Assembly: GCA_030524545.1 (NCBI GenBank)
Contig: JAUNGM010000006.1
Span: forward strand, 95,991 to 159,990
Direction: 5' to 3'
Length of the DNA: 64,000 nucleotides
Source of the DNA: Eubacteriales bacterium
GTDB taxonomy: Bacteria > Bacillota > Clostridia > Lachnospirales > Lachnospiraceae
Both the position numbers and the translations under genes were made by a program. This document shows, one piece after another, positions 12,571 to 49,511 of the stretch. The stretch's first letter is position 1; every line of letters starts with the position of its first letter. Under the pieces are notes generated by a model. It had not been told where the DNA came from. It was given only the letters and a program-made list of their open reading frames with translations, and ran no database searches.

Positions 12571-12684
12571 CAAATTGCCGAAAAGCGATTTTGTAAAGAC
12601 AGAATAAGAATGAACGGACACCCCTTTGCATATACATATAACAATACATGCGATTGTGTAAATCTATGCAAGGGGGCTTTTATT

Positions 12685-14852: not shown

Positions 14853-14899
14853 AAAAGAAATAAAGATTTAATGTATGAATAGTGTTGGAGAAGAAAAAT

Positions 14900-16354: not shown

Positions 16355-16363
16355 GTGACAATA

Positions 16364-16416
16364 CAAATAATATATTTAACGGCTGGAAGGCTTCCAACCG
16401 CTAAATATATTATTTG
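16364..16416. promoter_or_regulatory. Long hairpin between the first transferase and rfbA
   Basis: A 53-base inverted repeat with a 25-bp stem, two mismatches and a 3-base loop, beginning CAAATAATATATTTA and ending TAAATATATTATTTG. No T run follows, so it is not an obvious terminator; an RNA processing or stability element, or an attenuator in the polysaccharide operon, is possible. Confidence 0.6.
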
Positions 16417-16453
16417 TGATAAGTAATAAATATAATAAACAGAGGGAGATAGC

Positions 16454-17350: not shown

Positions 17351-17463
17351 ATAAAACATCTTGATCGAAATATGGATGCCTGTTTTAGGGATGGGATAAG
17401 TTTTTTGTGATTTGTCGAACAGGCATTATTGGTCATGCGATACGGAAACAGAGAGGAGCAGTT

Positions 17464-17703
17464 ATGATCGGAGAGCTAATTGTGATTGAAGGGCTGGATG
17501 GAAGCGGAAAAATGACCGTAAGGTATCGCGGAGATGAAAGCAAGAAGGATATACATGAGTGTAATCTAGAGTATATGAATTGATCAAAACTGGCTGCAGA
17601 GTATTGTGCCAGGAAACTGGAATGGAAGATTGTTCACAGTGTGAAAGATTGTACAATGCGGAGTATTGAGGAAATACATGACGAAATTGTCTCGTATATC
17701 TAA
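17464..17703 (+). pseudogene. Remnant of a thymidylate-kinase-like gene
   Basis: After GAGAGGAG, the frame begins with MIGELIVIEGLDGSGKMT, a dTMP-kinase P-loop N-terminus (normally GSGKST). It reaches an in-frame TGA at 17581 after 39 codons. The same frame then continues for 39 sense codons (through ARKLEWKIV and SIEEIHDEIVSYI) to TAA at 17703, resembling the C-terminal tail of the same family. So the two ends survive with a large internal deletion and a stop codon. It lies just before the AT-rich core of the locus. A 9-bp inverted repeat (17376-17384 with 17418-17426) precedes it. The stretch 17351-17736 contains nothing else I recognise. Confidence 0.75.
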
Positions 17704-17736
17704 AGAACATTGAAGAAGGAATAAAGGAGAAAAAGA

Positions 17737-18840
17737 ATGTCTATTTTGGTAACAAGATCCTCTATGCCGAAACTGGAGGACTATATTGAAGAAATTAGAC
17801 CTATTTTTGAGAGCCATCGTTTAACTAATATGGGACCCGTTTATAAACAGTTCCAGCATCAGTTAATTGATTATTTGGGAGTACCGGAGCTTTCTCTGTT
17901 TGTAAATGGTCATATGGCTTTAGAAATGGCTATCCATGCGTTGGGGCTGAGACGTGAGGGCGGAGAAGTCATTACAACTCCATTTACATTCGTTTCTACG
18001 ACACATGCCATTGTAAGAAATGGATTAAAGCCTGTATTCTGTGACATTAAACCAGATGATTATACAATGAATCCTGAGAAAATTGAGGACTTGATTACAG
18101 ATAAGACTGTCGCAATTATTCCTGTTCATGTTTATGGAAATTTATGTGATGTGGAAGCCATAGACAAAATATCTAAGAAGCATAATTTGAAAGTGATTTA
18201 TGATGCAGCACATGCATTCGGCGTTACATATAAAGGAGTCGGAGCCGGAAATTTTGGCGACGCATCTATGTTTAGTTTCCATGCAACTAAAGTATTCAAT
18301 ACGATTGAAGGAGGAGCAGTCGCTTTTCATGATCAGTCATTTCGTGAAAAACTACATGAGTTAAAAAATTTTGGTATTCATGGTGTCGACGATGTGATGG
18401 CAGTTGGAGGCAATGCGAAGCTGGATGAATTCCGCGCTGCTATGGGTATCTGTAATTTGCGGCGTATGGACGAGTGCATCACCAGGCGGGCTGAAGTAGC
18501 AGCAAGATATAATGAGCGCCTTGGTAATATTCCGGGAATCAGACTTGGAAAGCCAAAAGAAGGCGTTATGCCGAATCATGCTTATTATCCGGCGTATTTT
18601 GATGAAAATGTTTTTGGAAAGAGCCGTGATGATGTGTTTGAACAGTTGAAAGAGAATGATATTTATGCAAGAAAATATTTCTATCCCGCTGTAAATGAAA
18701 TGGCTTGTTATAAAGATGGCGGTTACGCGGAAACTCCGATCGCACATGATGTTTCCATGCATATTCTGACATTGCCGATATATGAGGAACTGGCTTTGGA
18801 AGATGTGGATCGGATATGTGATGTAATTCTTAATAAATAA
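17737..18840 (+). CDS. DegT/DnrJ/EryC1/StrS sugar aminotransferase
   Basis: 367 residues, PLP fold type I. The PLP lysine is Lys185 in FHATKVFNTIEGG, and the DAAHAFG motif with the cofactor-binding Asp is present. The FHATKVFNTIEGG signature resembles VioA-type enzymes that make dTDP-4-amino-4,6-dideoxyglucose from dTDP-4-keto-6-deoxyglucose (substrate assignment is an inference). It directly precedes a PglC-like transferase and an ATP-grasp ligase, so a free amino group on the first sugar could be the acceptor for an amino acid. Start behind AAAGGAG. Confidence 0.9.
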   Translation: MSILVTRSSMPKLEDYIEEIRPIFESHRLTNMGPVYKQFQHQLIDYLGVPELSLFVNGHMALEMAIHALGLRREGGEVITTPFTFVSTTHAIVRNGLKPVFCDIKPDDYTMNPEKIEDLITDKTVAIIPVHVYGNLCDVEAIDKISKKHNLKVIYDAAHAFGVTYKGVGAGNFGDASMFSFHATKVFNTIEGGAVAFHDQSFREKLHELKNFGIHGVDDVMAVGGNAKLDEFRAAMGICNLRRMDECITRRAEVAARYNERLGNIPGIRLGKPKEGVMPNHAYYPAYFDENVFGKSRDDVFEQLKENDIYARKYFYPAVNEMACYKDGGYAETPIAHDVSMHILTLPIYEELALEDVDRICDVILNK

Positions 18841-18858
18841 TTTGTTGGGGAAAGAAAA

Positions 18859-19716
18859 ATGCAGGATATAACTGAATTATCTAAATCGCAGAAAGCTGAG
18901 ATTGCAAGTTATATAGCGAGAGATAACCTTGCAATAGTAAATGCGAAAGTTAAACAGGTGACAGTTAAAGATACCTTTTATACCCGTTATGGGAAGCGTG
19001 CTATAGATATCGTTATTTCTTTGTTCGCATTGATTGTCACCTTGCCGATTAATTTCTTTATTGCAATAATAACTTTTTTTGATGTTGGTTCTCCTATTAT
19101 TTTTAAACAGCATCGTGTAGGAAGAAATGAGAAGATTTTTACAATTTACAAATTTCGAAATATGACTAATGAAACGGATGCTAATGGAGAATTGCTGCCA
19201 CCGTCTGAACGAGTAACAAAATGGGGAAACTTTGTAAGAAAGACCTCTTTGGATGAACTTCTTAATTTTGTATCAATTTTGAATGGTTCAATGAGTATTA
19301 TCGGACCTAGACCATTATTGGAATATTATGCAGAGCGATTGAATGTACGCCATAAAAAAATTTATGCAGTTCGTCCGGGATTGGAGTGTCCTACTTTAAA
19401 TAAGGTTGACCATACATTATCTTGGCAGGAACGTTTAGAGAATTATATTTGGTACGTGGAAAACTGCAGTTTTTGGATTGATGTGAAACTGGCATTCAGA
19501 ATTGTTCAAATTGCATTTGATCGAAAAAGTACTGCACAAAGAGCTGACGCAAGCCATGGAGGGTTGCTGGGGTATGACTTGGAAGGAAATGTGATTTATA
19601 CCAAATCTGTACCGGATCATTTTGTAGAAGAGTTTTGTAAAAAGCACGGCTATAAGAATTTAGAAGATGCAGTTTCTATTCGCATAAAGGATGCGAATAA
19701 AGGTAAGAATATTTAG
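18859..19716 (+). CDS. PglC-like phosphoglycosyl transferase
   Basis: 285 residues. An N-terminal re-entrant hydrophobic segment (about 48-75) precedes the bacterial sugar transferase core IYKFRNMTNETDANGELL, KTSLDELLNFVSILNGSMSI and GPRPLLEYY, closely following the PglC layout (small monotopic enzyme, no CoA-like domain). The usual PGITGxxQVxGR motif is replaced by RPGLECPTLNKV, and there is an extra C-terminal tail of ~60 residues. It probably links a modified (amino) sugar phosphate to undecaprenyl phosphate. The gene starts 18 bases after the aminotransferase and ends just before the ATP-grasp gene. Confidence 0.85.
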   Translation: MQDITELSKSQKAEIASYIARDNLAIVNAKVKQVTVKDTFYTRYGKRAIDIVISLFALIVTLPINFFIAIITFFDVGSPIIFKQHRVGRNEKIFTIYKFRNMTNETDANGELLPPSERVTKWGNFVRKTSLDELLNFVSILNGSMSIIGPRPLLEYYAERLNVRHKKIYAVRPGLECPTLNKVDHTLSWQERLENYIWYVENCSFWIDVKLAFRIVQIAFDRKSTAQRADASHGGLLGYDLEGNVIYTKSVPDHFVEEFCKKHGYKNLEDAVSIRIKDANKGKNI

Positions 19717-19753
19717 TTATATGATTTTAGGGAAGAGTAAAAGAGGAATTGTA

Positions 19754-21043
19754 ATGAAAAAATATGAAAACAAACGTTTACTGATTATTGGAGCGACATC
19801 TTATTTTATTGATGTTATTCAAGAAGCAAAGAAAATGGGAATCTATACAATATGTACGGATTATAATCCAAATGCAATTGCGAAAAAATATGCAGATAAA
19901 TCGTATGATGTTAATACGGTTGATCATGAAGCCATTTTACAATTAGCAAAAGATGAAAAAGTAGATGGCGTTTTTGTTGCGTGGTCTGATGCGAATTTAT
20001 ATACAGCACAGTATGTATGCGAAAAACTTGGAATGCCATTTTATGCAACGAAAGATCAATTGGATTGCGCAGTTAACAAAGATTATTTTAAACAAATGTG
20101 CCGCAATTATAACGTTCCGTGTACGAAACAGTATCAACTGGATGAATCGTTTAAGAGAGAGGATCTTGACCAGATTGAATATCCTGTTATCGTGAAACCG
20201 GTAGATAATGGAGGTTCACGTGGAATTACGGTATGTAATTGTGAAGAAGAATTGAAGGAAGCATTTACAAAGGCATTAAGTTATTCTAAACGTAAAAATG
20301 TGATAGTGGAGCAGTTTATGGAAAATCAGGGAAAAACTATCAGCGTTAAATATTTAATTCGTGATGGGGTTCCATATCTGCTTAGTGTAGGAGATCGGCG
20401 AGTTCTGGATGCGCATGATGGAAAAGCATTGATAACAAGTGCTGCTATTTATCCTGCAAGTATTACGCAAAGGTATAAGGACACTCTTGATGAAAAAGTT
20501 CGTAAGATGCTGATAGAAATGGGCTTCCGCAATGGTCAATTGTTTATGGAGGCAATTCCGGCAGAGGATGAAATTTATTTTTATGAAATGGGTTACAGGT
20601 TAAGTGGCGGTATAACCTACCATATTACAGATTCATTAACTGGTATAAATGGTATGCGCATGCTGATTAACTTTGCACTGAGCGGTGAAATGTGTGATCA
20701 AGAGACTGCTGAACGTATTGATCCTTTCATGCAGGGGAAAGCCGCATGTAGTTTTGCGATTTTGATGAAACAAGGCACAGTGACTAAAATTAATGGTTTA
20801 GAAGAAGTTCGACAAAGTCCCAATGTGCTGGATATTACACAATACTATAAAGAGGGAATGACCGTAGAGCCAAGAGATGTTGGGAATGTGGGACAGATGT
20901 TTGCTCGTATTACAACGATTGGAAAAAATCGTGAAGATTTAGTGCAGGTGATTCATCAAATTGAGGAAAGAATATGTATTTTGGATGAAAATGGTGAGGA
21001 CATGTTTTTAAGAGCATTTGATCCAAATACAGTTTTGGAATAA
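19754..21043 (+). CDS. ATP-grasp ligase (amino-acid ligase-like)
   Basis: 429 residues. An N-terminal pre-ATP-grasp Rossmann domain (KRLLIIGATSYFIDVIQEAK) is followed by the ATP-grasp fold: YPVIVKPVDNGGSRGI (nucleotide-binding loop) and FYEMGYRLSGGITYH (metal-binding end). The layout resembles L-amino-acid ligases and biotin-carboxylase-type enzymes, which activate a carboxylate as acyl phosphate and join it to an amine. Cytosolic. The start is the ATG at 19754 behind AAGAGGAAT; an in-frame extension to 19691 overlaps the previous gene. Substrates unknown; context suggests amide formation in polysaccharide precursor assembly. Confidence 0.88.
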   Translation: MKKYENKRLLIIGATSYFIDVIQEAKKMGIYTICTDYNPNAIAKKYADKSYDVNTVDHEAILQLAKDEKVDGVFVAWSDANLYTAQYVCEKLGMPFYATKDQLDCAVNKDYFKQMCRNYNVPCTKQYQLDESFKREDLDQIEYPVIVKPVDNGGSRGITVCNCEEELKEAFTKALSYSKRKNVIVEQFMENQGKTISVKYLIRDGVPYLLSVGDRRVLDAHDGKALITSAAIYPASITQRYKDTLDEKVRKMLIEMGFRNGQLFMEAIPAEDEIYFYEMGYRLSGGITYHITDSLTGINGMRMLINFALSGEMCDQETAERIDPFMQGKAACSFAILMKQGTVTKINGLEEVRQSPNVLDITQYYKEGMTVEPRDVGNVGQMFARITTIGKNREDLVQVIHQIEERICILDENGEDMFLRAFDPNTVLE

Positions 21044-21054
21044 AGGAGAGAAAA

Positions 21055-22311
21055 ATGATAGGAATCAATACAGTCAGTTCGCAATCTGGACGGGCGTATT
21101 TTGCAGATTATTTGAAAAATGGCTATCAAATGATTGGATATGCACGTCACTCTATGCATGGCACAACATTCATTAATGCTGTAAGTAGTGCTGGAGGGAT
21201 TTATATGGATCGTCCTCAAAACAAGAATCAGGAGAGTAAAGTCTTTTTACCGTTGAAGGACAGCCGCGTTACGCAGGATTTGGAGGAATTAGTATCGAAT
21301 TCTGAACTGATTATTTTAGCCGAACCATCTCACTATTTTGTTCAGAGTGTAAAAGAAATGGTAGAAGCCGGACTGCTAAAATACCGCGTGCCTTTGGTTC
21401 TGTCTCCCTCAAGAACCTTTTCTTCTCCATATTTATGGGAAATTTTGGGGGAAGGGTATCCCATTGCTTGTTTTTCAACATGTGCGTATTCTTGTAAAGC
21501 ACCAGAACCGGATGTTGCATATATAAAACGACGCAAGCGTAATTGGATTATTTCGCTTGAAGGAGAGTTTTATGAATCACAGATAGGATTATTGCAGGAG
21601 TTGTTTCCACAGGCTGTCATTAATCATATTCCAGCTACGACATCACTCGGTAATGTAGGTGCAATTTTTCATCCTGCTACATATTTGTTAAATTACGATG
21701 AAATAAAACGCTGTGAAAGTTCAGGAAAGACTTTTTCTTTCTATATGGATGGAATTGCCGCAAGGCCAGAAGTGGGAGAAGTTTTGGAGGCAATTGATCA
21801 AATGCGTTTGGAGATTGCTGCGTGGTTTGGATATCCGGTATTTGGATTAAAAAGGAAACCATTTGAGGAACAGTGGGCAGAACTAATGCAAAATATGCGT
21901 ATAAAAGAAAAAACAGATGAGAATTTACGGGAATTACGTAGGATTCGTAGGGATAGTCTGCAAATTCTGAATAGTTCTATTACATCATGTAAACACTGGT
22001 TAGATTATACATACGGTGTGAAACGTATTCCGGATGAGCCGCTGTATAAGGCAATTGGTCGTACGCCTACATATCAGAAAAATAGTGTACCACAGGAACG
22101 GTATGTCAATGAAGATATTTCAACGGGTTTACTTCCATTGAGAAATATGGCAGCTCGATTTGGAATTGATACAAGTGCTGCGGATTACGTTTTGGAAATA
22201 TTTCAACGTTATTATAATTTTGAAGATGCAGTGGGAGTGCGCACACTAAATGAGTTTAGTGATGAGTATATTAAAAATTACTTACAAGGTAAATATTTTA
22301 AATTAATTTGA
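21055..22311 (+). CDS. Opine (octopine/nopaline) dehydrogenase family protein
   Basis: 418 residues. The middle and C-terminus follow the opine dehydrogenase family: STCAYSCKAPEPDVAYIKRR, SLGNVGAIFHPATYLL with candidate catalytic His206, FYMDGIAARPEVGEVLEAID, and a final helical domain with PLRNMAARFGIDTSAAD. These enzymes reductively join the amino group of an amino acid to a 2-keto acid. The N-terminal Rossmann glycine motif is missing: the first strand reads MIGINTVSSQSGRAYFADYL, so cofactor binding may differ. It is 11 bases after an ATP-grasp gene. Substrates unknown. Confidence 0.8.
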   Translation: MIGINTVSSQSGRAYFADYLKNGYQMIGYARHSMHGTTFINAVSSAGGIYMDRPQNKNQESKVFLPLKDSRVTQDLEELVSNSELIILAEPSHYFVQSVKEMVEAGLLKYRVPLVLSPSRTFSSPYLWEILGEGYPIACFSTCAYSCKAPEPDVAYIKRRKRNWIISLEGEFYESQIGLLQELFPQAVINHIPATTSLGNVGAIFHPATYLLNYDEIKRCESSGKTFSFYMDGIAARPEVGEVLEAIDQMRLEIAAWFGYPVFGLKRKPFEEQWAELMQNMRIKEKTDENLRELRRIRRDSLQILNSSITSCKHWLDYTYGVKRIPDEPLYKAIGRTPTYQKNSVPQERYVNEDISTGLLPLRNMAARFGIDTSAADYVLEIFQRYYNFEDAVGVRTLNEFSDEYIKNYLQGKYFKLI

Positions 22312-22342
22312 CAGTGCTTAATAGATATTAAGGAGATATGTA

Positions 22343-24193
22343 ATGAAAAATTTATATCTGGCAATGACATTAGGGGCAGATCCTCATACTGTAGGGATTT
22401 ATAAAGCGGTTCGTATCGCAAATTTATTGGGAATTCCCAGTAAAATTCTTGCTACAGATATGGATGATGAGAAAAAAATTCAGATCATAAAAGAAGAGGC
22501 CCCAGTGTTCCTTGGGTTGAGTTATCGTTTAAGTCCTGATAAGGCAGTATATGAATTACAAAAATTTTTAAAAAAAATGGAGAATGCAGGCTTAATAAGG
22601 GATGAACAATTTATCTGTTTTGCCGGGCTGCTTCCGACTTTGGATTTAGTAAGAAAGTTGGGAATAGATAAAAAATATAATATTTCGTTGATGGGAAGCT
22701 ATAAGGATATAGATAGGACTACATCTGAGACGATAGATTTTTTTCGCATTGCCACGTCTGACCAAAGGAAAAAAATAATTAAAATGGTACATGATGAATC
22801 AGAACCAGAACGCATCAAAATAATTGATGAAATAGCAAAAGATGTTTTTCGTAATGATGCATATCTTCTGGAACCTCCATTGCCTGTTCCGAGTCAGAAG
22901 GCTGTTTTATCTATTACAGATAGAATTGATGAATCCAAAATTCCAATTATTCGCAGTCATTATGGAGTGCCGGCACCGGATATTAATCCGACTGTGGATG
23001 GCATTCGGAGAATAGCTCAAGCCAGAGCTATTGATGAATTAAGTCTTGGTTCAAGTGATCTTTCACAACGGTATTATGGGCATCCGGAGATGTTTTTAGA
23101 CAGAAAGAATGATGGCGGGGTTCCGTATAAAAACCGGGAAGATCTCGAACGTATTTTTGCAGCTTCACGTGACGGTAATTTTCCATCTGTAAAACCATAT
23201 TGTCACGTGAACAATATTATTCCTTTTATTGATGAATGTTTGGATATTGGTATGTTAAAGGGAGCTCATCAGGCTATCCCTTTATTTTGGTTTAATGAAT
23301 TGGATGGGAGAGGTCCAATGACAGTGCCAGATTCCATTGAAGAACATCTTCGGGCAGTACAATATCTTGCTAAGAAGGGTATTCCCGTTGAAATGAATGA
23401 TCCGAATCAATGGTCTTCACGTATGGTACATGACACACTTTTTGTGGTTAGTTATTGCCTGTTGTCTTCTGTAATGTATAAATATGGTGTTAAAAATATG
23501 GTTGTACAATGCCAGTTTAATAAACCAGCAACAACAGGAGATTATGCAGATCTGGCAAAAATGATGACAGGGCAATATTTTATCGAGCAGTTACGTCCTG
23601 CTGGTAATCGTACAAGAGTACTTTATGAATGCCGATCAGGTATTGAACATTTTAGTACTGATCAGGAATTAGCCAAATTTCAGTTGGCACGCAGCACAAT
23701 TCTACAGATGTTAATTAATCCGAGTATTTTACATTTAGTTAGTTATTGTGAAGCTGATCATGTTGCGACGGCAGATGATGTAATTGAAAGCAGCAAGATT
23801 TTGCGTCATGCAGTAAGGTTATTCCGTGAAAATGAACAGGATATTCGTCGTGCTGTGAAGTGGGATGTTGTCCAGAAAAGAAGTGATTTCTTAAAAGAAG
23901 AGGTACGTGTCGTTTTAGATGAATTGGTTGCGTTAAGTGGGCATCGGAAGATTACGAATCTTCGTGAGTATCATCAGTATCTTGGACAGGCAAAAACGCT
24001 CCAGGGTGCTATGCAATATGGAATTATGGCAGCCCCCGGTATTACTCATAAAAAATATGCACATCCTGAGCTTTTAACTAAGATTGGGGAGTATGGAGTG
24101 ATGGATTGCTATCGTAACTGGGATGATAATAATCCGATGCGGGAAAAAGAAAGGCTTGCAGATATTAGAAAAAAGTACAATTTGAAGTATTAG
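22343..24193 (+). CDS. Fused cobalamin-binding, glutamate-mutase-like protein
   Basis: 616 residues. The N-terminus (1-130) looks like a B12-binding Rossmann domain, with DPHTVG at 13-18 matching the DxHxxG ligand motif. The remainder is a TIM-barrel-like domain whose pattern (NFPSVKPYCHVNNIIPFID, YLAKKGIPVEMNDPNQW, KYGVKNMVVQCQFNKPATT) distantly follows the epsilon subunit of glutamate (methylaspartate) mutase. In glutamate mutase the two parts are separate proteins; here they are one chain. I infer an adenosylcobalamin-dependent carbon-skeleton rearrangement of an amino acid, feeding the neighbouring ligases and opine dehydrogenases. Alternatives are another B12 radical mutase or a non-catalytic homologue. 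Start behind AAGGAG. Confidence 0.7.
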   Translation: MKNLYLAMTLGADPHTVGIYKAVRIANLLGIPSKILATDMDDEKKIQIIKEEAPVFLGLSYRLSPDKAVYELQKFLKKMENAGLIRDEQFICFAGLLPTLDLVRKLGIDKKYNISLMGSYKDIDRTTSETIDFFRIATSDQRKKIIKMVHDESEPERIKIIDEIAKDVFRNDAYLLEPPLPVPSQKAVLSITDRIDESKIPIIRSHYGVPAPDINPTVDGIRRIAQARAIDELSLGSSDLSQRYYGHPEMFLDRKNDGGVPYKNREDLERIFAASRDGNFPSVKPYCHVNNIIPFIDECLDIGMLKGAHQAIPLFWFNELDGRGPMTVPDSIEEHLRAVQYLAKKGIPVEMNDPNQWSSRMVHDTLFVVSYCLLSSVMYKYGVKNMVVQCQFNKPATTGDYADLAKMMTGQYFIEQLRPAGNRTRVLYECRSGIEHFSTDQELAKFQLARSTILQMLINPSILHLVSYCEADHVATADDVIESSKILRHAVRLFRENEQDIRRAVKWDVVQKRSDFLKEEVRVVLDELVALSGHRKITNLREYHQYLGQAKTLQGAMQYGIMAAPGITHKKYAHPELLTKIGEYGVMDCYRNWDDNNPMREKERLADIRKKYNLKY

Positions 24194-24234
24194 CGGTTTG
24201 GGATAAGTGTGAAAATATACAGGAGAGTGATGAT

Positions 24235-25338
24235 ATGGCAGATAGATCAAAGATGGGTTTGCTTTTAGATCATGCATATATTTATGGCAAAACGTTAAAG
24301 TATTGTGTTAATAAATCAAGATATGCAAAAAAGAGAATTAAGATGATTGGAGGAGGATATAAGGGAAGCCAAAAAGAATATAAAGAAACGGTATTAGAAT
24401 ACTGGAAACCTTATGGTATACGTCCAAGAAGATATTGGTATACATTATATTGCTCAAGAGAAAATTCATATGATCCAAGATATATTCCAGATAATATATG
24501 GTTTGGAAAGATTTATCCATATTTTAACAATATTATTGCGCGTAATACTTATGCAGATAAGGGGTTTTTTGATACTTTATTTTCTGATTTAAAGCGCCCA
24601 GAAACTATTGTAAAAAATATGGCGGGAAAATACTATGATGCAGATATGAACAGAATGTCAAAGGAAGAAGCAGTAGAGCGCTGTCTTAAGGCTAAGAATT
24701 GGGTAATTAAAGCTTCAACTAATACTGGTGGGGGAAAGAGTGTACAGTTTTTTGATTTTTCTGGTGAGAATGACAGAATTAAAATAGAAAAACTGTTTTC
24801 TGAATATAAAGTGAATTTTATTGTACAGAATTTAGTTGAGCAGCATCCTGATTTAGCAAGAATTCATGATAAGTCATTAAATACGATACGTGTTCAATCG
24901 TTTTTCTTTAAAGATAAGGTACATATTTTATCATCACAGCTTCGTATGGGAAGCGGGGAATCTCGTCTTGATAATGTGTCTTCAGGAGGATGCGCTTGTG
25001 CAATTGGCGAAGATGGCTGGTTAGTCGGGAAAGCAGTCACTAGAAAATCAGAATGGACGGATCATCATGAAAGTGGAATCTATTTTAAAGATGTACGAGT
25101 TCCTTCATATGATAAAATCCTTGAAATTGTAAAGAAAAAACACCCGCAGTTGCCTTATTTTGGAATTATAGGATGGGATTTTGCGGTTGATGCGGAAGGG
25201 GAACCGGTTTTTATTGAAATAAATGCAACATCTGAGCCTAATCAGATAGCAAGTGGTCCAACTTTTGGGGATTTGACTCAGGAGGTTCTGCAGGAAGTTT
25301 TCATTGATAAAACGATGAAAGATTACTTTATTAATTAA
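24235..25338 (+). CDS. Sugar-transfer-associated ATP-grasp ligase
   Basis: 367 residues. Basic, helical N-terminus (1-60), then an ATP-grasp fold with NWVIKASTNTGGGKSV (nucleotide loop), RIHDKSLNTIRVQSFFF, GGCACAIGEDG and GIIGWDFAVDAEGEPVFIEINATSEP carrying the metal-binding Asp/Glu/Asn. This matches the sugar-transfer-associated ATP-grasp family (PF14397-like), found in surface polysaccharide loci. It probably forms an amide between an amino acid or sugar carboxylate and an amine. Second ATP-grasp of the locus and unrelated in detail to the first. Confidence 0.85.
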   Translation: MADRSKMGLLLDHAYIYGKTLKYCVNKSRYAKKRIKMIGGGYKGSQKEYKETVLEYWKPYGIRPRRYWYTLYCSRENSYDPRYIPDNIWFGKIYPYFNNIIARNTYADKGFFDTLFSDLKRPETIVKNMAGKYYDADMNRMSKEEAVERCLKAKNWVIKASTNTGGGKSVQFFDFSGENDRIKIEKLFSEYKVNFIVQNLVEQHPDLARIHDKSLNTIRVQSFFFKDKVHILSSQLRMGSGESRLDNVSSGGCACAIGEDGWLVGKAVTRKSEWTDHHESGIYFKDVRVPSYDKILEIVKKKHPQLPYFGIIGWDFAVDAEGEPVFIEINATSEPNQIASGPTFGDLTQEVLQEVFIDKTMKDYFIN

Positions 25339-25357
25339 TTGATAAGAGTGAGGAATT

Positions 25358-26512
25358 ATGAAAATAAGTTTTACAGGCGATTTAACCTGTGATAAACCGC
25401 TTTTAAAGGCTGCGTATTTGAATGACGAATTTCATTTTGAGAATGTGTTTTTTCATGTTTCGGAGTTGTTTAGGGATTCTCAGTATGTAGTATCAAATTT
25501 AGAAACGACTTTTTCAGAAGAGGGAAATTATAATAAAAAGGCTTATTGCTATAATTCGCCTAAAGTGTTCCTGGATGCAGCATGTAAGGCAGGAATTAAT
25601 ATTTTTAGTATTGCAAATAATCATTGCTGTGATGGGGGATTACCGGGACTGAAAAATACAGTTTCTGAATTGGAGAAAAGAAATTTATTATACATGGGTT
25701 ATAAAGGAAGAAGTTGTACTGTGCAGCAGGATGGGCAAAGAGTTACATTTTTGTCTTATACCTACGGAATTAATGATAACGGATACGATTTAGAGGATAT
25801 AGAAAAAAGCGTAAATGTGTTAAGACCCTATGCCAGGGGAAAAGATACGGGATTCAGAAAAGTAATACCAATGTCTTGGCGCAGGAGAATACGTAAAACA
25901 ATTCGCTTATTAAAAGGAAAGCCTACTTTGGCAAAATCTGTAGATGACTATCCTGTAAATGAATCATTCTGTGAAAAGATCAAAGAAGATATTCGTGATG
26001 CAAAAGAGAATTCTGATTTTGTATGTGTGTATCCGCATATGGGAGGGCAGTTTAATTTAGAAATAGGTAGCTTCAGTCGGACTATGGCAAAGTGTTTTGA
26101 AGACGCAGGTGCAGATTTGATTGTAGCTAATCATGCTCATATTGTACAGAAGTACGAAAATGAGACAATTCCTATATTTTACTGTCTAGGGGGATTAAGT
26201 ATTTCCCCTAGTGCATCGTACTTAATTCAGGACGATATGCCGCAATATTCTATTGTCGTGCATCTCTATATTAGTGAGAAAAAGCATAAACTTACATTTT
26301 CAATTATAAAATGTGTGGAGGATGAAAACGGATATGTTACGATATGGCCTGTAGATAGTCTTTATAAATCGCTCACAGAAAATAATAAGAGACATCAGCT
26401 AAAGAAAGAAGCAGTTCTTATCTATAACAGACTTTTGTCTACAAATGTAGATTGGGAAGATTTTGAGCTAAAAAAAGAATACGAAATAAAAGAGGTTAAG
26501 AGCAATGTGTAA
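25358..26512 (+). CDS. CapA-family (PGA_cap) metallophosphoesterase-like protein, copy 1
   Basis: 384 residues with no signal peptide or membrane segment. The calcineurin-like fold motifs of CapA/PgsA proteins are present: GDL (7-9), SNLETTF (46-52), ANNHCCDGGL (86-95), YPHMGGQFN and ANHAHIVQ. In poly-gamma-glutamate capsule systems CapA/PgsA acts with CapB and CapC, but neither of those is here. Its product overlaps the next start by 8 bases. The second copy at 28804 shares the same motifs. Role in this locus unknown, plausibly hydrolysis or transfer on an amino-acid-bearing intermediate. Confidence 0.88.
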   Translation: MKISFTGDLTCDKPLLKAAYLNDEFHFENVFFHVSELFRDSQYVVSNLETTFSEEGNYNKKAYCYNSPKVFLDAACKAGINIFSIANNHCCDGGLPGLKNTVSELEKRNLLYMGYKGRSCTVQQDGQRVTFLSYTYGINDNGYDLEDIEKSVNVLRPYARGKDTGFRKVIPMSWRRRIRKTIRLLKGKPTLAKSVDDYPVNESFCEKIKEDIRDAKENSDFVCVYPHMGGQFNLEIGSFSRTMAKCFEDAGADLIVANHAHIVQKYENETIPIFYCLGGLSISPSASYLIQDDMPQYSIVVHLYISEKKHKLTFSIIKCVEDENGYVTIWPVDSLYKSLTENNKRHQLKKEAVLIYNRLLSTNVDWEDFELKKEYEIKEVKSNV

Positions 26513-27485
26513 ACGTACAATGGGATTTCTAATTAGTCATAAAAATAATGAGAAAAGACGAGCATTATTACCAAAAGATTTGTCAATGATTAAAAATTGT
26601 GATTGTCTTTATTTTGAGTCCGGTTACGGAGAGAGTGTGAATTGCACAGATGAGGAATATTTACGTTATGGAGTACATGTGGTATCACGTGAAGAGGTGT
26701 TAGAGTGTGATATTATTGTCGATGTTAAATTAGGTGATGCAGATTATTTGGAAGAGATTGAAGATGGAAAGATTTTATGCGGATGGGCACATGCTGTTCA
26801 GGGGATTGAATTTACATCCGTTTGTTTAAAGAAAAATTTTACAGTCATAGCATGGGAAGAAATTTTTGAACATGGCCAGTATATATTCCATAGAAACAGG
26901 GAAGTTGCCGGGGAAGCAGGAATTCTTCAAGCATTTTTATACTGTGGAAAGATGCCATATGATACTAAGGTTGCCATTTTAGGAAATGGTCAGACAGCAA
27001 AAGGAGCCTTAAGAGTACTTAACGGATTAGGTGCAGAAGTTGATGTATATGGAAGAAATCTTGAGAATCTTTTTAAACGGAACATGGACCAATATGATGT
27101 TCTGGTTAACTGTATTATGTGGGATACCAACAGAACAGATCGTATCATCTATCGCGAAGATTTAAAACGTTTAAAAAAGGGTTGTATGATTGTTGATATT
27201 AGTTGTGATCCAAATCTTGAAATAGAGACCACACATGCCACCACAATTGATAATCCAGTTTATGTTGTAGATGGTATTATCCATTATGCAGTAGATAATA
27301 CACCAGCAATGTTTCCTTATACAGTTACGAAAGTATTGAGCAGCGGTTTTGCCCTTTATGTGGATCAAATTCTTGAGAACCGTTTGTCAGAGTCGATTAA
27401 TAAAGCAACTGTAATAAAAGAGGGTAATATTAAGGATATCAATATTCGAAAGTTCAGAGAAAGAATCGGGGAATTTTGTAAATGA
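26505..27485 (+). CDS. N5-(carboxyethyl)ornithine synthase-like dehydrogenase
   Basis: 326 residues, alanine dehydrogenase/transhydrogenase superfamily. N-terminal NEKRRALLPKDL and FESGYGESVNCTDEEY follow the carboxyethylornithine synthase (CEOS) branch; the nucleotide-binding loop ILGNGQTAKGALR lies at 158-170, and DNTPAMFPYTVTKVLS is the conserved C-terminal part. CEOS joins pyruvate reductively to the side-chain amine of ornithine or lysine, giving N-(1-carboxyethyl) amino acids. It overlaps the CapA gene upstream (8 bases) and the PP-loop gene downstream (4 bases), so the three are translationally linked. The exact substrate is inferred; lysine 2-oxidoreductase-like activity is an alternative. 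Confidence 0.8.
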   Translation: MCKRTMGFLISHKNNEKRRALLPKDLSMIKNCDCLYFESGYGESVNCTDEEYLRYGVHVVSREEVLECDIIVDVKLGDADYLEEIEDGKILCGWAHAVQGIEFTSVCLKKNFTVIAWEEIFEHGQYIFHRNREVAGEAGILQAFLYCGKMPYDTKVAILGNGQTAKGALRVLNGLGAEVDVYGRNLENLFKRNMDQYDVLVNCIMWDTNRTDRIIYREDLKRLKKGCMIVDISCDPNLEIETTHATTIDNPVYVVDGIIHYAVDNTPAMFPYTVTKVLSSGFALYVDQILENRLSESINKATVIKEGNIKDINIRKFRERIGEFCK

Positions 27486-28747
27486 TTAAGATACGCAATC
27501 TTCAAAAAAAATATGTTAATAAACGGGTTCGTATTAGTGCAACTATAGATATTCCGGATGACGCGGCATCAAAGTGGTATCAACATTCTTTGGAACAAGA
27601 GAAAACAAAAGAAGATTACAGTTATGTTGTGGAAGACTATCTTGATTGGATCCAGGGGGAAAGAGAATTATATTATGAAGTTGACAAAGAATTTGAGTCT
27701 TTTCTTGTGACGGAAACATCAGATTGTTTTGTTGCAGGTATATTATATTATGCCATGGCATCAGGTCATGATATTTTTTGTGAGAAACCAGTTTCTCAAC
27801 AATTATTAGAGAATTTAAATAACACATTGATTCCTTTAGTCTGCAAGGCTTCCAATGTTCCAATAATAAAAGTTATTGCTAAGCCATTTTATGGAAAAAT
27901 AGGAGAGGGCACGGAAATCGGAACGGGTATGAGTGCAGGAGTTGATTCCCTTCATACAGTATATTTATATGGAACTCATACAGATCCAGAGCAGAAACTG
28001 ACTGTTTTGACGCAGTTTAACGTGGGGTCTGAAAGATATTATTTTAAACATGAGAAAAACATGGAAGGGTTAGAACGATATGAAAAACAGTTTCAGGAGA
28101 CTAAAAAAAGCCGAGTAAAAAGAGCAAAAGAGGTGGCGGAAGCTCTTGGAATGAAATATTTGCAGGTGGATTCCAATATTCAGGATATTTATCAGGGGTT
28201 ATTTGAAGAGTCTCATATTTATCGTACAGCTTCTGCAGTTTTGGCTTTACAAAAGTTATTTAAGAAATATTATATAGCTTCTAGTGGATGTTCTCATTTG
28301 GATTATCAGCCGTCAATTTATAAAGACCCAGCCCATTATGAACAGATTAGCGTTCCAATGATGAGTACTGTGACCACTCGGATTGTTTCGGCGTCAAAAG
28401 CATATACTCGAATCGATAAAATAAATGATTTGAAAGATTTTCCGCTTGCTAAGAGATATCTTTGTGTATGCGGGAAGCATGAGAAACCATGTTATCATTG
28501 TGGTAAAGAGAGAAGAACTTTTGTTATTTTAGATATTCTTAATTGTTCAGAAAATTTTAGCGAGGTTTTCGACATAAATAAAATAAAAGAAGTAAGAAAT
28601 GAAACATATTACTGGTTATTAGTGGAAAAGGATAAAAAGAATCCTGCAACGCTTTACATTTATGAAAAAGCAGAGGAAAAAGGTCTGATTCCGCAGAAAG
28701 CAAAAATGAAATATTTTTTGCACAAAATGAAACATTTGTTTCATTGA
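27482..28747 (+). CDS. PP-loop ATP pyrophosphatase (AANH superfamily) protein
   Basis: 421 residues. The PP-loop signature appears as GTGMSAGVDSLHT, with SAGVDS at 151-156 instead of SGGxDS. A C-terminal cysteine cluster (CVCGKHEKPCYHCGK) could bind zinc. PP-loop enzymes adenylate a carboxylate, amide or thiolate acceptor (asparagine synthetase, tRNA thiolases, WbpG-type sugar amidotransferases). No amidotransferase (Ntn) domain is fused. I do not recognise the specific subfamily. Its overlap with the CEOS gene suggests it acts on the same intermediate. Confidence 0.75.
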   Translation: MIKIRNLQKKYVNKRVRISATIDIPDDAASKWYQHSLEQEKTKEDYSYVVEDYLDWIQGERELYYEVDKEFESFLVTETSDCFVAGILYYAMASGHDIFCEKPVSQQLLENLNNTLIPLVCKASNVPIIKVIAKPFYGKIGEGTEIGTGMSAGVDSLHTVYLYGTHTDPEQKLTVLTQFNVGSERYYFKHEKNMEGLERYEKQFQETKKSRVKRAKEVAEALGMKYLQVDSNIQDIYQGLFEESHIYRTASAVLALQKLFKKYYIASSGCSHLDYQPSIYKDPAHYEQISVPMMSTVTTRIVSASKAYTRIDKINDLKDFPLAKRYLCVCGKHEKPCYHCGKERRTFVILDILNCSENFSEVFDINKIKEVRNETYYWLLVEKDKKNPATLYIYEKAEEKGLIPQKAKMKYFLHKMKHLFH

Positions 28748-28803
28748 TAGAATATTTTTTGAGTTTTGAAAAATATTTCATTTCATGATTAGGAGAATCT
28801 GAT

Positions 28804-30024
28804 ATGTCAAAAGTTAAGATCACTTTTTTAGGCGATATTATGTGTGAACCCTTACTTATGAAGGCTGCGCAAAACAAATATAATACATATAATTTTGATT
28901 GTGTATTTCAAAATATCCAAGAATTACTTTCTGAATCTGATTATGTAATTGGTAATTTAGAAACACCGTTAGCCGGAAAAGAGGCTGGTTATACACAGGG
29001 ATTATTTGAATTTAATGCACCTGATGAATTTGCAGATGCAGTAAAAAAGGGAGGGATTGATTTAGTCAGTACTGCAAATAATCATTGCCTTGATCGTGGA
29101 ATTGATGGATTACTTCGTACAATTCGAGTATTAGATGAGAAAGGAATAGGACATACGGGGACCTTTTTGCCAGAACAGAAACGTGATAATGCCTTTTTCT
29201 TTGAAATAAAAAATACCCGAATGGCAGTTGTCTCATATACTTATGGAACAAATTATTATGAAAACCGTATATCCCTGGATAAAATGCAAGCAAATATGAT
29301 TAATCTTCTTCGTCCGCAGGAAGAATCCTGTTATATATTGAATAAGTCGACGAAAAAGCCAGCTCTTAGGAAGCGGATATGGGGAAGGTTTTTACGTAAT
29401 TTTCCATTGGAGCAACAGTATGCAATTAAAAGGGCACTGCGTTTACCTTATAATATGGCACGTGAAGACAATAATTTAAACAAGTCTACAATGCTGCCAT
29501 ATATTCAGAAAATGCAGAGGGATATTAAATCTGCAAAAGAAGAAGCTGATTTTGTGTTTTTTTATCCTCATGTAGGGGGACAGTTTAATCTTGAACCTGG
29601 CCGCATTTCGAAGTATGTTTTTGAAAAAGCAGTAGAGTCAGGGTGTGATGCGATTATAGCATCGCATCCTCATATTGTACAGAGAGCAGAGTATTATGGA
29701 AAGGTTCCGTGTTTCTACTCACTTGGTAACTTCAGCATGTCACCGAATTCCGTATACTTATTGCATGAAAATCTGCCAGACTATGGTATTGCTGTTCATA
29801 TATATATAGATGAAGGCAAAATTATTAAAGTGACTTTTTCTATTCTGAAAATTGTCGAGAGTAGTAAAGAACCATTGTCTGTTTATACTGTTGATGAATT
29901 ATACGGTTTACTAAAATCTACTTCTGAAAAAACTAAGTTAATGGAGGAAGTTTCACAAATTTATCAAGTTGTAACAGGAACACAGTTGAAAAATGGTTTA
30001 GTGAAACGGGAGTATAGTTTTTAA
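28804..30024 (+). CDS. CapA-family protein, copy 2
   Basis: 406 residues, paralogue of the protein at 25358. Shares GDI at the N-terminus, GNLETPLAG, ANNHCLDRGIDGLL, FYPHVGGQFNLE and ASHPHIVQRAE, in the same order and without a signal peptide or membrane anchor. A basic, less conserved insert (about 175-225) is present in both copies. Having two cytosolic CapA homologues in one locus without PgsB/PgsC is unusual. It is followed after 14 bases by the polymerase gene. Confidence 0.88.
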   Translation: MSKVKITFLGDIMCEPLLMKAAQNKYNTYNFDCVFQNIQELLSESDYVIGNLETPLAGKEAGYTQGLFEFNAPDEFADAVKKGGIDLVSTANNHCLDRGIDGLLRTIRVLDEKGIGHTGTFLPEQKRDNAFFFEIKNTRMAVVSYTYGTNYYENRISLDKMQANMINLLRPQEESCYILNKSTKKPALRKRIWGRFLRNFPLEQQYAIKRALRLPYNMAREDNNLNKSTMLPYIQKMQRDIKSAKEEADFVFFYPHVGGQFNLEPGRISKYVFEKAVESGCDAIIASHPHIVQRAEYYGKVPCFYSLGNFSMSPNSVYLLHENLPDYGIAVHIYIDEGKIIKVTFSILKIVESSKEPLSVYTVDELYGLLKSTSEKTKLMEEVSQIYQVVTGTQLKNGLVKREYSF

Positions 30025-30038
30025 GGAGGTGAAAGGGA

Positions 30039-31325
30039 GTGGTTACTCCACAGTTAAAATTAAAACTAAAGTTTCGAGTAACAAGTGAGACACTTAAACA
30101 GCTTGTATTTATTTTATATTTTTGTAATCCTTTTATCAGGCTGTTTTTTTCTGCATTGCTTTCTAAGTTTGGAATGTCAGAATATGCATATCTTGCTACC
30201 ATAGTACTTATTTATAGTTTGGTTCTATTTCTAATAGTCTTGGATAGAAGAAATTTTATTAAGGATTTTGCAGTTTTGTTCCTTTTTATAATCGCATTTT
30301 TTGCAATCACATTATTAATACATCCGAATTATGAATATTGGTATAAACGAAGTACATACGGGGTATGGGATTATGTGTTGCGTCCTGACAATGGTCTTTA
30401 TGCGTATTTTTTCATTCGCTTATTAAATAATCCAGAAAATATTATGAAAACACTGAAAAAATGTGCCTGGATTATGTACCCGTATTATATGTATTTATTA
30501 TTAAATGCCTCCAGAGTGGGATACTGGATAGATCACAATTCCTCGGGCCAATTGATTCATTATAAGTACAGCCTAACTTTTGGATATGATGTTCTATTAT
30601 ATGTACTGGTCTTTTTGTATGCGGCATTTGAAAAAAAGAAGGTAATAGATATTATCCTTTCTATTGCTGGAATCTTCATGATTTTAAAAGGAGGATCGCG
30701 AGGCCCTTTACTTTGTATTGCAATTTTTGTAATAATACTCATTGCAAAATCATTCCAGGAATCGCGTTCTAGTAAGAAGATGGGAATGCTATTGGCTACT
30801 ATTGGACTAGCTGTGATTTTATTTGTATCATATGATAAAATTCTTTCAGCTTTAATAAATTTACTAAATCAATTTAATGTTTCTTCAAGAACGTTGACGA
30901 TGTTGCTGGAGGGAAGTATTGCAGATAATAATGGCAGGTATGAAATATGGAATGCAGCCATTGAAATGATTAAAAAGAATCCCTTTGGATATGGTGCAAT
31001 GGGAACCAGACATGTTATTTATTATTATCACTATGTAGGGCATTGTCATCAGATTTTCTTAGAAATGCTCGTTGATTATGGAGTATTTTTAGGTACTGCC
31101 TTGATTATTCTGATGCTTGCGAAAGCATTTCAAATCCTTTTTTCTAAAGGTACTGAAAAGTGGTTTGGTGTCTTTATGATTTTTTTCTGCAGATCATGTC
31201 ATTTGCTAATGTCGGGAACTTATTGGCATCTTTTGTCTTTCTGGGCATGCATTGGAATAGGAGTCAGTATTTATTATGAAAAAAAGACATGCAAAAGGAG
31301 GAGAAAAATAAATGGCAGATTCTAG
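30039..31325 (+). CDS. Wzy/O-antigen-polymerase-like membrane protein
   Basis: 428 residues with about ten hydrophobic segments. ILKGGSRGPLLCI matches the conserved GSRG region of O-antigen ligases and polymerases, and NGRYEIW with GHCHQIFLEMLVDYG matches the later His-containing loop. It would polymerise lipid-linked repeat units outside the membrane. The start is GTG at 30039, set by a perfect AAGGAGGT 8 bases upstream. It overlaps the flippase gene by 14 bases. Confidence 0.85.
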   Translation: MVTPQLKLKLKFRVTSETLKQLVFILYFCNPFIRLFFSALLSKFGMSEYAYLATIVLIYSLVLFLIVLDRRNFIKDFAVLFLFIIAFFAITLLIHPNYEYWYKRSTYGVWDYVLRPDNGLYAYFFIRLLNNPENIMKTLKKCAWIMYPYYMYLLLNASRVGYWIDHNSSGQLIHYKYSLTFGYDVLLYVLVFLYAAFEKKKVIDIILSIAGIFMILKGGSRGPLLCIAIFVIILIAKSFQESRSSKKMGMLLATIGLAVILFVSYDKILSALINLLNQFNVSSRTLTMLLEGSIADNNGRYEIWNAAIEMIKKNPFGYGAMGTRHVIYYYHYVGHCHQIFLEMLVDYGVFLGTALIILMLAKAFQILFSKGTEKWFGVFMIFFCRSCHLLMSGTYWHLLSFWACIGIGVSIYYEKKTCKRRRKINGRF

Positions 31326-32841
31326 AACTGGAAATGTCATAAAAAATTCAGGAGCGAGTTTACTTTATAAAGGAAGCCATATTATCATCCAATTTGCATT
31401 AAGAACCGCCTTTATTCGTATCTTGGGCAAGGAGTATGGAGGTATATCGACATTATTTACAGATATTCTTAGTGTACTTTCCCTTATGGAGCTTGGAATG
31501 GGAAGTGCAATGACGTATGCATTATATAAGCCCTTAGCAGAAAAGGACGGTAAGAAAATTTCTGCTCTTATGAATTTCTATAAGAAAGCATATACGCTAA
31601 TTGGGGTAATGGTATTGCTTGTCGGATTAGCTTGTACACCATTTCTCCAGTATATTGTAAAAGATGTTCCTAATATTAAAGAGGATATCCGGCTAATTTT
31701 TGTAATGTACGTGTTAACATCCTCTGCGTCTTATTTACTGGTATACAAAACAGCACTGTTACGGGCGGATCAAAAGCCAAGAATTATATTTATGGCTGAT
31801 GCAGTGATTCAGTCTTGTGAAAGTTTAATTGAAATTATTTTGCTTGTGATTTTTAGGGAATATTTTATTTATTTAATCCTACATCTGATTGCGACACTCC
31901 TTCGAAATATTATTCTCTCTTATAAAAGTCAGAGAATGTATTCGGAATATTTATGCAATCGAGACTCAAGCTTGAAGAAAGAAGAAACTAAAAAATTATT
32001 CAAAGATATTTATGCTCTGGCAATTTATAAAATTTCTGGGACTATTGTAAATAGCACAGATAGCATTGTGATATCTGCCTTTGTAGGTACTGTTGAAGTA
32101 TCACTTTTAGGCAACTTTACACTGATTATTAATAGTATACGAACAGCAATTGAACAAATTGTGAATGCTGCAAGACCCAGTGTTGGAAATTTAGCCGCAA
32201 CATCATCAAGTGAAAAACAAGAATCTGTTTTTGAGCAGATGAATTTTATAGCATTTTGGGTTGCGTGTTTTTGTTGTACTTGTTTTTATATCTTATTAAA
32301 CCCCTTTGTTGGAAATATATGGTTTGATAAGAGTTTTGAAATGTCAAATACAGTAATTGTTGTTCTGACAGCTAATTTTTTTATCTCGGTTATGGTTTAT
32401 CCGGTGGAGATTTTTCGAACAGCAAATGGACTATTTATTCAAGGAAAGTATCGGCCAGCCATAATGGCCGTAATGAATATCGTTTTAGACATTTTACTTG
32501 TAGAAAATTGGGGAGCTGTTGGTGTATTACTCGCAACTACTTTTTCTAGGCTATCTACACAGGTTTGGTTTGATCCCTATTTGATTTATAAATTTGCCTT
32601 TTTTAAAAAACCATGGACATATTATCTTGAGTATCTCAAAGATGCAGTAGTAACATTGATGAGTTGCGTGATTGCGCAGTTTATCGTTGGTGTATTAACA
32701 TTTGATAATGTCTATTTTGACTTCATATATCGAATGATTGTTGCTATATGTGTACCTAACATTTTATTGTTTGTTCTTTATCATCGTAGATCTGAGTTTA
32801 TAACAATGAGAGAAAGAATTATTAAGAAAATGAAACACTGA
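31312..32841 (+). CDS. Wzx-type lipid-linked oligosaccharide flippase
   Basis: 509 residues with about 12-14 predicted membrane helices, polysaccharide-export (MOP/MATE) superfamily. Characteristic features are the N-terminal NSGASLLYKGSHIIIQFALR, the conserved basic residues after it, and FRTANGLFIQGKYRP in the C-terminal half. It flips undecaprenyl-diphosphate-linked units across the membrane. Start behind AAGGAGG, overlapping the polymerase gene. Confidence 0.9.
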   Translation: MADSRTGNVIKNSGASLLYKGSHIIIQFALRTAFIRILGKEYGGISTLFTDILSVLSLMELGMGSAMTYALYKPLAEKDGKKISALMNFYKKAYTLIGVMVLLVGLACTPFLQYIVKDVPNIKEDIRLIFVMYVLTSSASYLLVYKTALLRADQKPRIIFMADAVIQSCESLIEIILLVIFREYFIYLILHLIATLLRNIILSYKSQRMYSEYLCNRDSSLKKEETKKLFKDIYALAIYKISGTIVNSTDSIVISAFVGTVEVSLLGNFTLIINSIRTAIEQIVNAARPSVGNLAATSSSEKQESVFEQMNFIAFWVACFCCTCFYILLNPFVGNIWFDKSFEMSNTVIVVLTANFFISVMVYPVEIFRTANGLFIQGKYRPAIMAVMNIVLDILLVENWGAVGVLLATTFSRLSTQVWFDPYLIYKFAFFKKPWTYYLEYLKDAVVTLMSCVIAQFIVGVLTFDNVYFDFIYRMIVAICVPNILLFVLYHRRSEFITMRERIIKKMKH

Positions 32842-32896
32842 TGATTAAAAAGGTGTTTATTTGAGAAGGGAAATTAGAAGAAGGAGGGTGTTGCGA

Positions 32897-46939: not shown

Positions 46940-46945
46940 ATGAGT

Positions 46946-49494: not shown

Positions 49495-49511
49495 GGGATG
49501 GAAGGAAAAAG

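Follow-up and report, generated by a model that had tools for sequence, protein, structure and literature searches.

The window analysed here, a 64,000-nucleotide stretch corresponding to positions 95991–159990 of its contig in the genome of an Eubacteriales bacterium from the gut (4.34 Mb in 76 contigs), carries a capsule locus of the Wzx/Wzy type in which ATP-grasp ligases and a phosphoglycosyl transferase (PGT) are present, while no glycosyltransferase (GT) gene lies between the aminotransferase and the flippase. That this interval encodes no GT2, GT4 or other GT had been claimed by a first-pass annotation made from the sequence, and is upheld here by Pfam, NCBIfam, home-made hidden Markov models (HMMs) and profile comparison. 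The GT-free observation is confirmed as real and goes beyond chance, since the home-made HMMs find GT2/GT4 genes at 18 of the 20 Wzy loci compared in other genomes of the genus and at all three others within this genome. The gene content, the intactness of the genes, the missing GT families, the key residues and the recurrence of the pattern are all established directly.

The capsule locus is placed between the SpoIVA gene (12610–14154) and a pair of the subtilase and isocitrate dehydrogenase families (52287–54517). Its Wzx/Wzy operon is intact and runs on a single strand from 14882 to 32841, comprising the WbaP-like transferase, RmlA and 12 further genes ending with Wzx. An extent of 17737–32841 had been proposed earlier; all 12 genes of that interval are present on the plus strand as intact open reading frames (ORFs) separated by −26 to +56 bp, but the true start lies earlier, with the PGT at 14882 and RmlA at 16454, the latter being 386 bp away from the aminotransferase gene. 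The genes of the operon are as follows:

14882–16354, +: full-length WbaP/EPS-type PGT, the fixed first gene of the capsule site in the genus (PF02397 and PF13727; also at the site in L062, L064, L065 and L070)
16454–17350, +: RmlA-like glucose-1-phosphate thymidylyltransferase (PF00483)
17737–18840, +: DegT/DesI-like aminotransferase, probably for dTDP-4-amino-4,6-dideoxyhexose synthesis (PF01041, 3.1e-96; TIGR04427 DesI, 6.3e-87, under the model cut-off)
18859–19716, +: PglC-like PGT of a separate RPGLECP subfamily, judged by motif and neighbours (PF02397, 3.3e-48)
19691–21043, +: ATP-grasp ligase of the L-amino-acid-ligase (LAL) type (PF02786, PF18603 LAL_C2; solved L-amino acid ligase 3vot, 2.8e-17)
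21055–22311, +: octopine/opine dehydrogenase (ODH) with the acidic-amino-acid signature R120/G202 (PF02317, 1.9e-24; 1bg6, 4.5e-14)
22343–24193, +: B12-dependent-mutase-like protein of 616 aa (N-terminal DPHTVG, the remainder remotely like glutamate mutase E)
24235–25338, +: ATPgrasp_ST ligase (PF14397, 1.1e-34)
25358–26512, +: CapA-like (PGA_cap) protein 1, apparently soluble (PF09587, 5.8e-46; no transmembrane (TM)-like segment)
26505–27485, +: oxidoreductase of the alanine dehydrogenase (AlaDH) family (PF01262 and PF05222; 2eez, 1.3e-25)
27482–28747, +: PP-loop ATPase with conserved cysteines, a probable amide-forming enzyme (SAGVDS at residue 151)
28804–30024, +: CapA-like protein 2, apparently soluble (PF09587, 5.4e-62; only solved relative an MslH-type peptide epimerase)
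30039–31325, +: Wzy-type polymerase of the Wzy_C/O-antigen ligase family (PF04932, 3.1e-16; 42% to the Wzy of genome G574)
31312–32841, +: Wzx-type flippase (59% to a G574 protein matching PF01943; nine TM-like segments)

The same site varies among the other genomes of the genus, holding the WbaP-like transferase alone in L064 and, in L065, the same transferase and after it CpsB, Wzz, an ATPase resembling a kinase and a longer locus that includes two GT2 and two GT4 genes. Such variability, together with the decay seen in relatives (in G574, the WbaP-like gene is truncated), could suggest that the locus has decayed and its GTs have been lost; with all 12 ORFs intact and tightly spaced, however, and an independent sister locus being also without a GT, this explanation is very improbable.

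Pfam assigns nine of the 12 proteins over its cut-offs (DegT, Bac_transf, ATP-grasp types, Octopine_DH, ATPgrasp_ST, PGA_cap twice, AlaDH and Wzy_C) and detects no GT family in the 12 at E ≤ 0.1, nor does NCBIfam in the first ten proteins, Wzy and Wzx lying outside that scan. The home-made GT2 and GT4 HMMs, enlarged with matches from the surveyed loci and blind to other GT families (such as the GT56 of L103 and L124), match no window ORF of at least 150 aa even at E ≤ 10. The three proteins without a Pfam assignment are the 616-aa mutase-like protein, the PP-loop protein and Wzx; the first gives hhalign probabilities of 0.8% and 0.3% with the GT4 and GT2 profiles, respectively, and the PP-loop family profile does not resemble either of them (0.2–0.8% for the two non-Pfam families together). 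A hidden GT is rejected on these four approaches, the HMM and profile part of the GT search recommended in the first-pass annotation having returned no GT match. As for the remaining parts of a Wzx/Wzy locus, PGTs are encoded at 14882, 18859 and 45578 (PF02397 in each), and both Wzx and Wzy are present; the repeat-building GTs are lacking. The assembly genes named in that annotation were largely recovered, too: the PglC-like transferase (PF02397), two ATP-grasp ligases (PF02786/PF18603 and PF14397) and the PP-loop ATPase (by its family profile), as well as Wzy by its Wzy_C match and Wzx through the 59% identical homologue matching PF01943.

With regard to the comparison within the genus, Wzy_C was sought across 38 genomes, yielding 42 rows, 18 of which were dropped because they lay under the cut-off, came from fragments of long frames or were weak; four of the rows are this genome's own. 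The Wzy loci examined were 20 from other genomes and the three others here, with at most about 10 kb taken per side and six of the 23 stretches shortened by contig ends. The two loci lacking GT2/GT4 are L124 (genome G572) and L116 (G574). In the former, an RPGLECP transferase is accompanied by an aminotransferase (66%), by genes for acyl synthesis recognised from their N-termini, by a Wzy (33%) and by a GT56-like protein that shares 50% identity with the PF07429 protein of L103, a similar locus. Both L103 and L124 possess the RPGLECP transferase, genes for KAS III, a short-chain dehydrogenase and an AMP-ligase (by Pfam in L103), one GT56-type gene and a Wzy 31–33% identical to that of the window, thus representing an acyl-chain counterpart of the window locus.

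L116, on contig C31 of G574, is a sister locus from another species, located at the same site, its SpoIVA being 90% identical. SpoIVA is followed by a WbaP-like remnant, by genes for a dehydratase (Polysacc_synt_2), an aminotransferase, the PglC-like transferase and an acetyltransferase of the GNAT type, and then by a protein of 350 aa to which Pfam assigns nothing. Next come an ATP-grasp protein, an ATPgrasp_ST ligase (47%) and the octopine dehydrogenase (PF02317, 2.6e-39); a hexapeptide acetyltransferase and another ATPgrasp_ST follow, and the row ends with CapA, Wzy and Wzx (47%, 42% and 59%, respectively). Among the 14 genes from SpoIVA to Wzx, no GT is found by Pfam (13 scanned, the aminotransferase being recognised by BLAST alone), and the GT2/GT4 HMMs are silent on the locus at E ≤ 1. 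The WbaP-like gene is reduced to its CoA_binding_3 part and, since it has lost the transferase domain, the PglC-like enzyme is the sole PGT there. The G574 Wzx is also the nearest homologue of the window Wzx among 194 relatives, the next one being only 37% identical. This sister locus, with the combination of ligase, opine dehydrogenase and CapA named in the first-pass annotation, repeats the pattern without a GT, so two species with differing amino-sugar routes follow one GT-free plan. In the open-access literature searched, no description of this sister locus was found.

These genes suggest a route in which a lipid-linked amino sugar carrying an opine/peptide block would be flipped and polymerised, the repeat unit being completed without the need of a GT, and we consider the chances of this proposal to be evenly balanced; the substrates, the order of the steps and the bond made by Wzy are those that we infer. 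RmlA of the locus, together with RmlB from elsewhere, would produce dTDP-4-keto-6-deoxyglucose, to be aminated by DegT to dTDP-4-amino-4,6-dideoxyhexose (Qui4N or Fuc4N), whereupon the RPGLECP transferase would load the amino sugar phosphate onto undecaprenyl phosphate. The octopine dehydrogenase and the glutamate-mutase-like enzyme would yield an acidic, probably carbon-branched opine, which the LAL-type ATP-grasp ligase would couple to the 4-amino group of the sugar. ATPgrasp_ST and the PP-loop enzyme would attach further amide-linked pieces, one perhaps originating from the AlaDH-like enzyme, and the CapA-like enzymes would fix the configuration in an epimerase-like manner. The unit would then be flipped by Wzx and the units joined by Wzy, with the LCP, CpsB, Wzz and kinase genes serving polymer attachment and length control.

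Concerning the amino sugar, the aminotransferase is nearest to DesI (TIGR04427), although under the cut-off of that model, and the only RmlB over the cut-off in the genome is found elsewhere, at C48:64490. The region of approximately 60–95 kb of that contig (G000:C48; L077, L078) represents a second polymer locus with RmlA, this RmlB, several GT2, a DegT (31%) and another LAL-like ATP-grasp protein (29%). The PglC-like transferase has the letters RPGLECP where the other PGTs compared have RPG followed by TGWAQVNGRN-like letters. Its close relatives (E ≤ 1e-60) occur in six of 392 genomes of the order, the window's included, all five others having the motif, and L124 and L125 add two more to give eight RPGLECP transferases known. 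Each of the eight shares its stretch or contig with a DegT; in five of the seven others (L096, L098, L100, L103 and L124) one 50–73% identical to that of the window lies near the transferase, whereas in L125 and L101/L102 the identity is only 32–33%, the gene being about 9 kb away in the latter. L098 and L100 show the order DegT, RmlA, an RmlB-like ORF (judged by its N-terminus) and the RPGLECP transferase. Because of this company, a dTDP-4-amino-4,6-dideoxyhexose is the likely substrate, and the aminotransferase and the RPGLECP transferase taken together point to a 4-amino-4,6-dideoxyhexose.

Two opine-type dehydrogenases had been proposed for the locus; the one at 21055 (PF02317) is such an enzyme, but that at 26505 belongs to the alanine dehydrogenase family (PF01262, 2eez). 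The former aligns to N-(1-D-carboxylethyl)-L-norvaline dehydrogenase (1bg6, 4.5e-14) and exhibits the PF02317 domain, the His-Asp dyad and the active-site Trp of the octopine/opine dehydrogenases. According to a 2024 study (PMC10787698), Arg at the position 111 of ArODH together with Gly at 198 switches such dehydrogenases to L-aspartate. Counted along the 1bg6 alignment, the window ODH has Arg120 and Gly202 at these positions, both being invariant in 36 of 36 ODHs (the window and the BLAST-found ODHs of the mutase loci), as are the catalytic His206, Trp315, Arg349 and Asp354. Since the ODH of the mutase-free G574 locus has Tyr and Asn there, the acidic signature goes, among those examined, with the mutase.

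The 616-aa protein contains DPHTVG at residue 13, in accordance with the B12-binding DxHxxG motif, and its D13, H15 and G18 are invariant in 35 of 35 sequences. When profiled with its 34 homologues against glutamate mutase E, it gives an hhalign probability of 77.8% (E 1.9e-5, 346 columns), an unrelated-pair control giving 0.5%; the B12 mutase-like enzyme of the earlier annotation is thus probably a distant relative of glutamate mutase. Single-sequence searches of the PDB with the mutase and PP-loop proteins yielded chance matches only (a reductase at E 0.75 and STRAD kinases at E 0.009). The protein is not accepted as a plain glutamate mutase, because the arginine claw (for two carboxylates), at what we take to be its positions, is not conserved, and its real substrate may therefore be the opine itself or another acid. 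The product of the classical glutamate mutase is 3-methylaspartate; since this is an acidic amino acid, the product of the pair is predicted to be an acidic, carbon-branched opine.

Among 37 mutase loci, which come from Bacillota, Bacteroidota, Hydrogenedentota and Planctomycetota, an ODH is found on the same stretch in 34, at most 300 bp away in 28; with regard to the other three, the stretches of L015 and L017 stop just past the mutase. The neighbourhoods as listed contain an LAL-type ATP-grasp in 21 and a DegT in 14 of the 37, and no viral copies of the mutase were confirmed. The tree joins the window to L025 (98); across its well-supported branches, the label "glycan locus" has to change four times or more, so the ODH-mutase pair has seemingly been recruited into glycan loci more than once. 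The two genes form a lone pair in L008, L009, L010, L011, L012, L013, L018 and L027, with no LAL, DegT or PGT homologues in the neighbourhood listed; two of their hosts are the haloalkaliphiles Halolactibacillus alkaliphilus and Natronobacillus azotifigens. DegT-LAL-ODH-mutase modules are also present in the glycosylation loci L029, L034, L037 and L039, of which L029 and L037 lie apparently beside flagellin genes (by N-termini), where a similar aminoacyl sugar may decorate flagellin.

As far as the ligases are concerned, the first ATP-grasp protein (19691) resembles the L-amino acid ligase (PF18603; 3vot), and ATPgrasp_ST (24235) has no solved relative at E ≤ 1. At E ≤ 10, the PP-loop family profile matches seven sequences of the PDB (best 0.0083), which are named MnmA/2-thiouridylase, tRNA thiolase and NAD synthetase, all of these being PP-loop enzymes. 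The family is also found in other genomes of the order (L048, L049), where the proteins reach about 845 aa through an additional C-terminal half. Next to the ligase/ODH modules, proteins that match nothing in Pfam at the thresholds applied are seen repeatedly (L116:1965-3014, L026:7721-8689, L028:28-888 and L035:4973-5836). The AlaDH-like enzyme may supply an amino acid; in G042, its homologue overlaps a homologue (61%) of the NhaC-like antiporter of the window, in a locus that has GTs.

Both CapA proteins, as annotated previously, contain PF09587, and both look soluble, a simple hydropathy test finding no TM-like segment in seven CapA proteins of such loci. The solved relatives of CapA2 are only three PGA-type sequences, the numbering of which fits that of the MslH paper (PMC10406935). 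By that numbering, CapA2 keeps Glu44, Asn87, His88, Asp91, His261 and His295, i.e. six of the seven aligned metal or catalytic residues of MslH, with His259 replaced by Tyr and Asp11 outside the alignment; the residues corresponding to the MslH set are invariant in the seven CapA proteins. The score with the NCBIfam MslH model is 51.9 bits against a cut-off of 700. Because CapA2 keeps most of the MslH residues and there is no TM-like segment, it is a fair guess that the CapA-like proteins act in the manner of an epimerase on a peptide or opine.

The lipid-linked amino sugar with amide-linked amino acids or opines, as put forward in the first-pass annotation, remains the best fit to the genes, and the sister locus repeats the pattern; several points nevertheless weigh against it. 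The same module adjoins GTs in other loci and may therefore only decorate; all seven other RPGLECP loci have a GT2, GT4 or GT56-like gene; 17 PF00535 (GT2) and 12 PF00534 (GT4) matches elsewhere in the genome could act in trans; and the G574 contig stops 437 bp past Wzx. Transferases of this kind are, to our knowledge, not described as dedicated to a dTDP-sugar. The mutase-like protein has no PF06368 match, the residues aligned with the assumed claw are His, a Ser/Gln region and Tyr, and a search of the PDB with its profile returned six weak matches (E 0.06–0.95), the best being a chance Toll-like receptor and four being named cobalamin proteins matched at the motif.

The main rival is an ordinary heteropolysaccharide with a decorated sugar, in which the module would make an opine- or peptide-bearing Qui4N and GTs from elsewhere in the genome would build the rest. 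Besides the stock of GTs just mentioned, it draws on the Bacteroidales and flagellin-type loci pairing the same module with GTs, on RmlB being needed from another locus already, and on the presence of the second, WbaP-like transferase. The other Wzy loci here and most of those in the genus carry, however, their own GT2/GT4, the locus of G410 at the same site has its own GTs, and the sister locus of G574 is GT-free despite a different amino sugar, so we regard GTs acting in trans as possible but rather doubtful.

Downstream of the operon, two further features touch the same subject:

40503–41909, +: NhaC-like antiporter, a possible partner of the AlaDH-like enzyme (PF03553)
45578–50956, +: third PGT, LCP ligase, CpsB phosphatase, Wzz and BY-kinase-like ATPase, for capsule control and attachment (PF02397, PF03816, PF19567, PF02706, PF13614)

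The latter genes bear on another alternative, in which the PF04932 protein would be a ligase instead of a polymerase, and single opine/peptidyl amino-sugar units would be flipped and attached singly to a wall polymer or protein. PF04932 spans both O-antigen ligases and Wzy, the unit seems to have one sugar, and flagellin-type loci use a related module, but Wzz, CpsB, BY-kinase-like and LCP genes at the same site are those of chain-making capsule loci, which makes this alternative improbable. The interval 32861–40405, beginning 19 bp past Wzx (TTG start as called) and perhaps co-transcribed, encodes a protein of 2514 aa in which an NlpC/P60 domain is combined with numerous repeats of the choline-binding type. 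An Rfam scan of the window revealed no cobalamin or other riboswitch above the gathering score.

Returning to the GT-independent route, we tentatively suggest a capsule class, the "opino-glycan", with one lipid-linked amino sugar per repeat, in which amide ligases would assemble the remainder, possibly including the backbone, from opines and amino acids produced in situ (with a B12-dependent carbon-skeleton rearrangement), giving a Wzx/Wzy polymer without any GT; its probability falls short of even. If true, its first members would be two independent loci from a single genus, Wzx and Wzy would handle a one-sugar lipid-linked unit with the complexity arising from amide chemistry, and the boundary between capsule polysaccharides and peptide-type polymers would blur. 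Functions would follow for the little-assigned groups of ATPgrasp_ST, soluble CapA, the ODH-mutase pair, the PP-loop family and the RPGLECP transferases, and an acidic, branched opine would be a testable prediction for surface polymers of gut bacteria.

Two known systems can be set aside. For the poly-gamma-glutamate (Cap/Pgs) system, the 12 genes contain no CapB Mur-ligase-like or CapC Pfam domain and CapA is without a TM-like segment; for the teichuronopeptide (TupA), there is no TupA-like ATP-grasp, the ligases matching the ATPgrasp_ST and LAL types. The locus had been described as unmatched to any known system, which holds for the combination of genes and the GT-free Wzx/Wzy assembly, neither being found described in the open-access literature, but less so for its parts, since the module occurs in Bacteroidales loci that have GTs and an opine on Qui4N has a precedent. 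The latter, alanopine on 4-amino-4,6-dideoxyglucose (Qui4N) in Providencia alcalifaciens O35, is indicated by a title cited in a review (PMC10609480), and a Microbulbifer capsule is described (PMC3210612) as a homopolymer whose single amino-sugar acid carries D-alanine in amide linkage. Both the predicted opine block and one-sugar repeats with amino acids are thus chemically reasonable.

Within the genus, the G410 capsule locus shares with the window the site, the first PGT, the CpsB, Wzz and kinase genes, Wzx and Wzy, but has two GT2 and two GT4 where the window has none. The G574 sister locus shares the site, the aminotransferase and PGT, ATPgrasp_ST, octopine dehydrogenase, CapA, Wzy, Wzx and the lack of a GT, whereas a Polysacc_synt_2 dehydratase replaces RmlA, the PGT motif is the usual one, there is no B12 mutase, PP-loop or AlaDH gene, and its ODH is without the acidic signature. 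Compared with glutamate mutase (GlmE/S), the window mutase shows a remote profile similarity over the 346 columns and the B12 motif, but has a fused B12 part, lacks the claw at its assumed positions and is paired with an opine dehydrogenase. The MslH lasso-peptide epimerase (PMC10406935) shares with CapA2 the PGA_cap/calcineurin-like family and most metal and catalytic residues, although CapA2 scores far under the model cut-off and has Tyr in place of the first coordinating His. The acidic-amino-acid opine dehydrogenases (mODH; PMC10787698) have the same Arg and Gly at ArODH 111 and 198, whereas that of the window shares its operon with a mutase and amide ligases. The O-polysaccharide of P. 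alcalifaciens O35, to judge from its cited title, likewise has an opine amide-linked to 4-amino-4,6-dideoxyglucose, there in what we assume to be an ordinary GT-built repeat.

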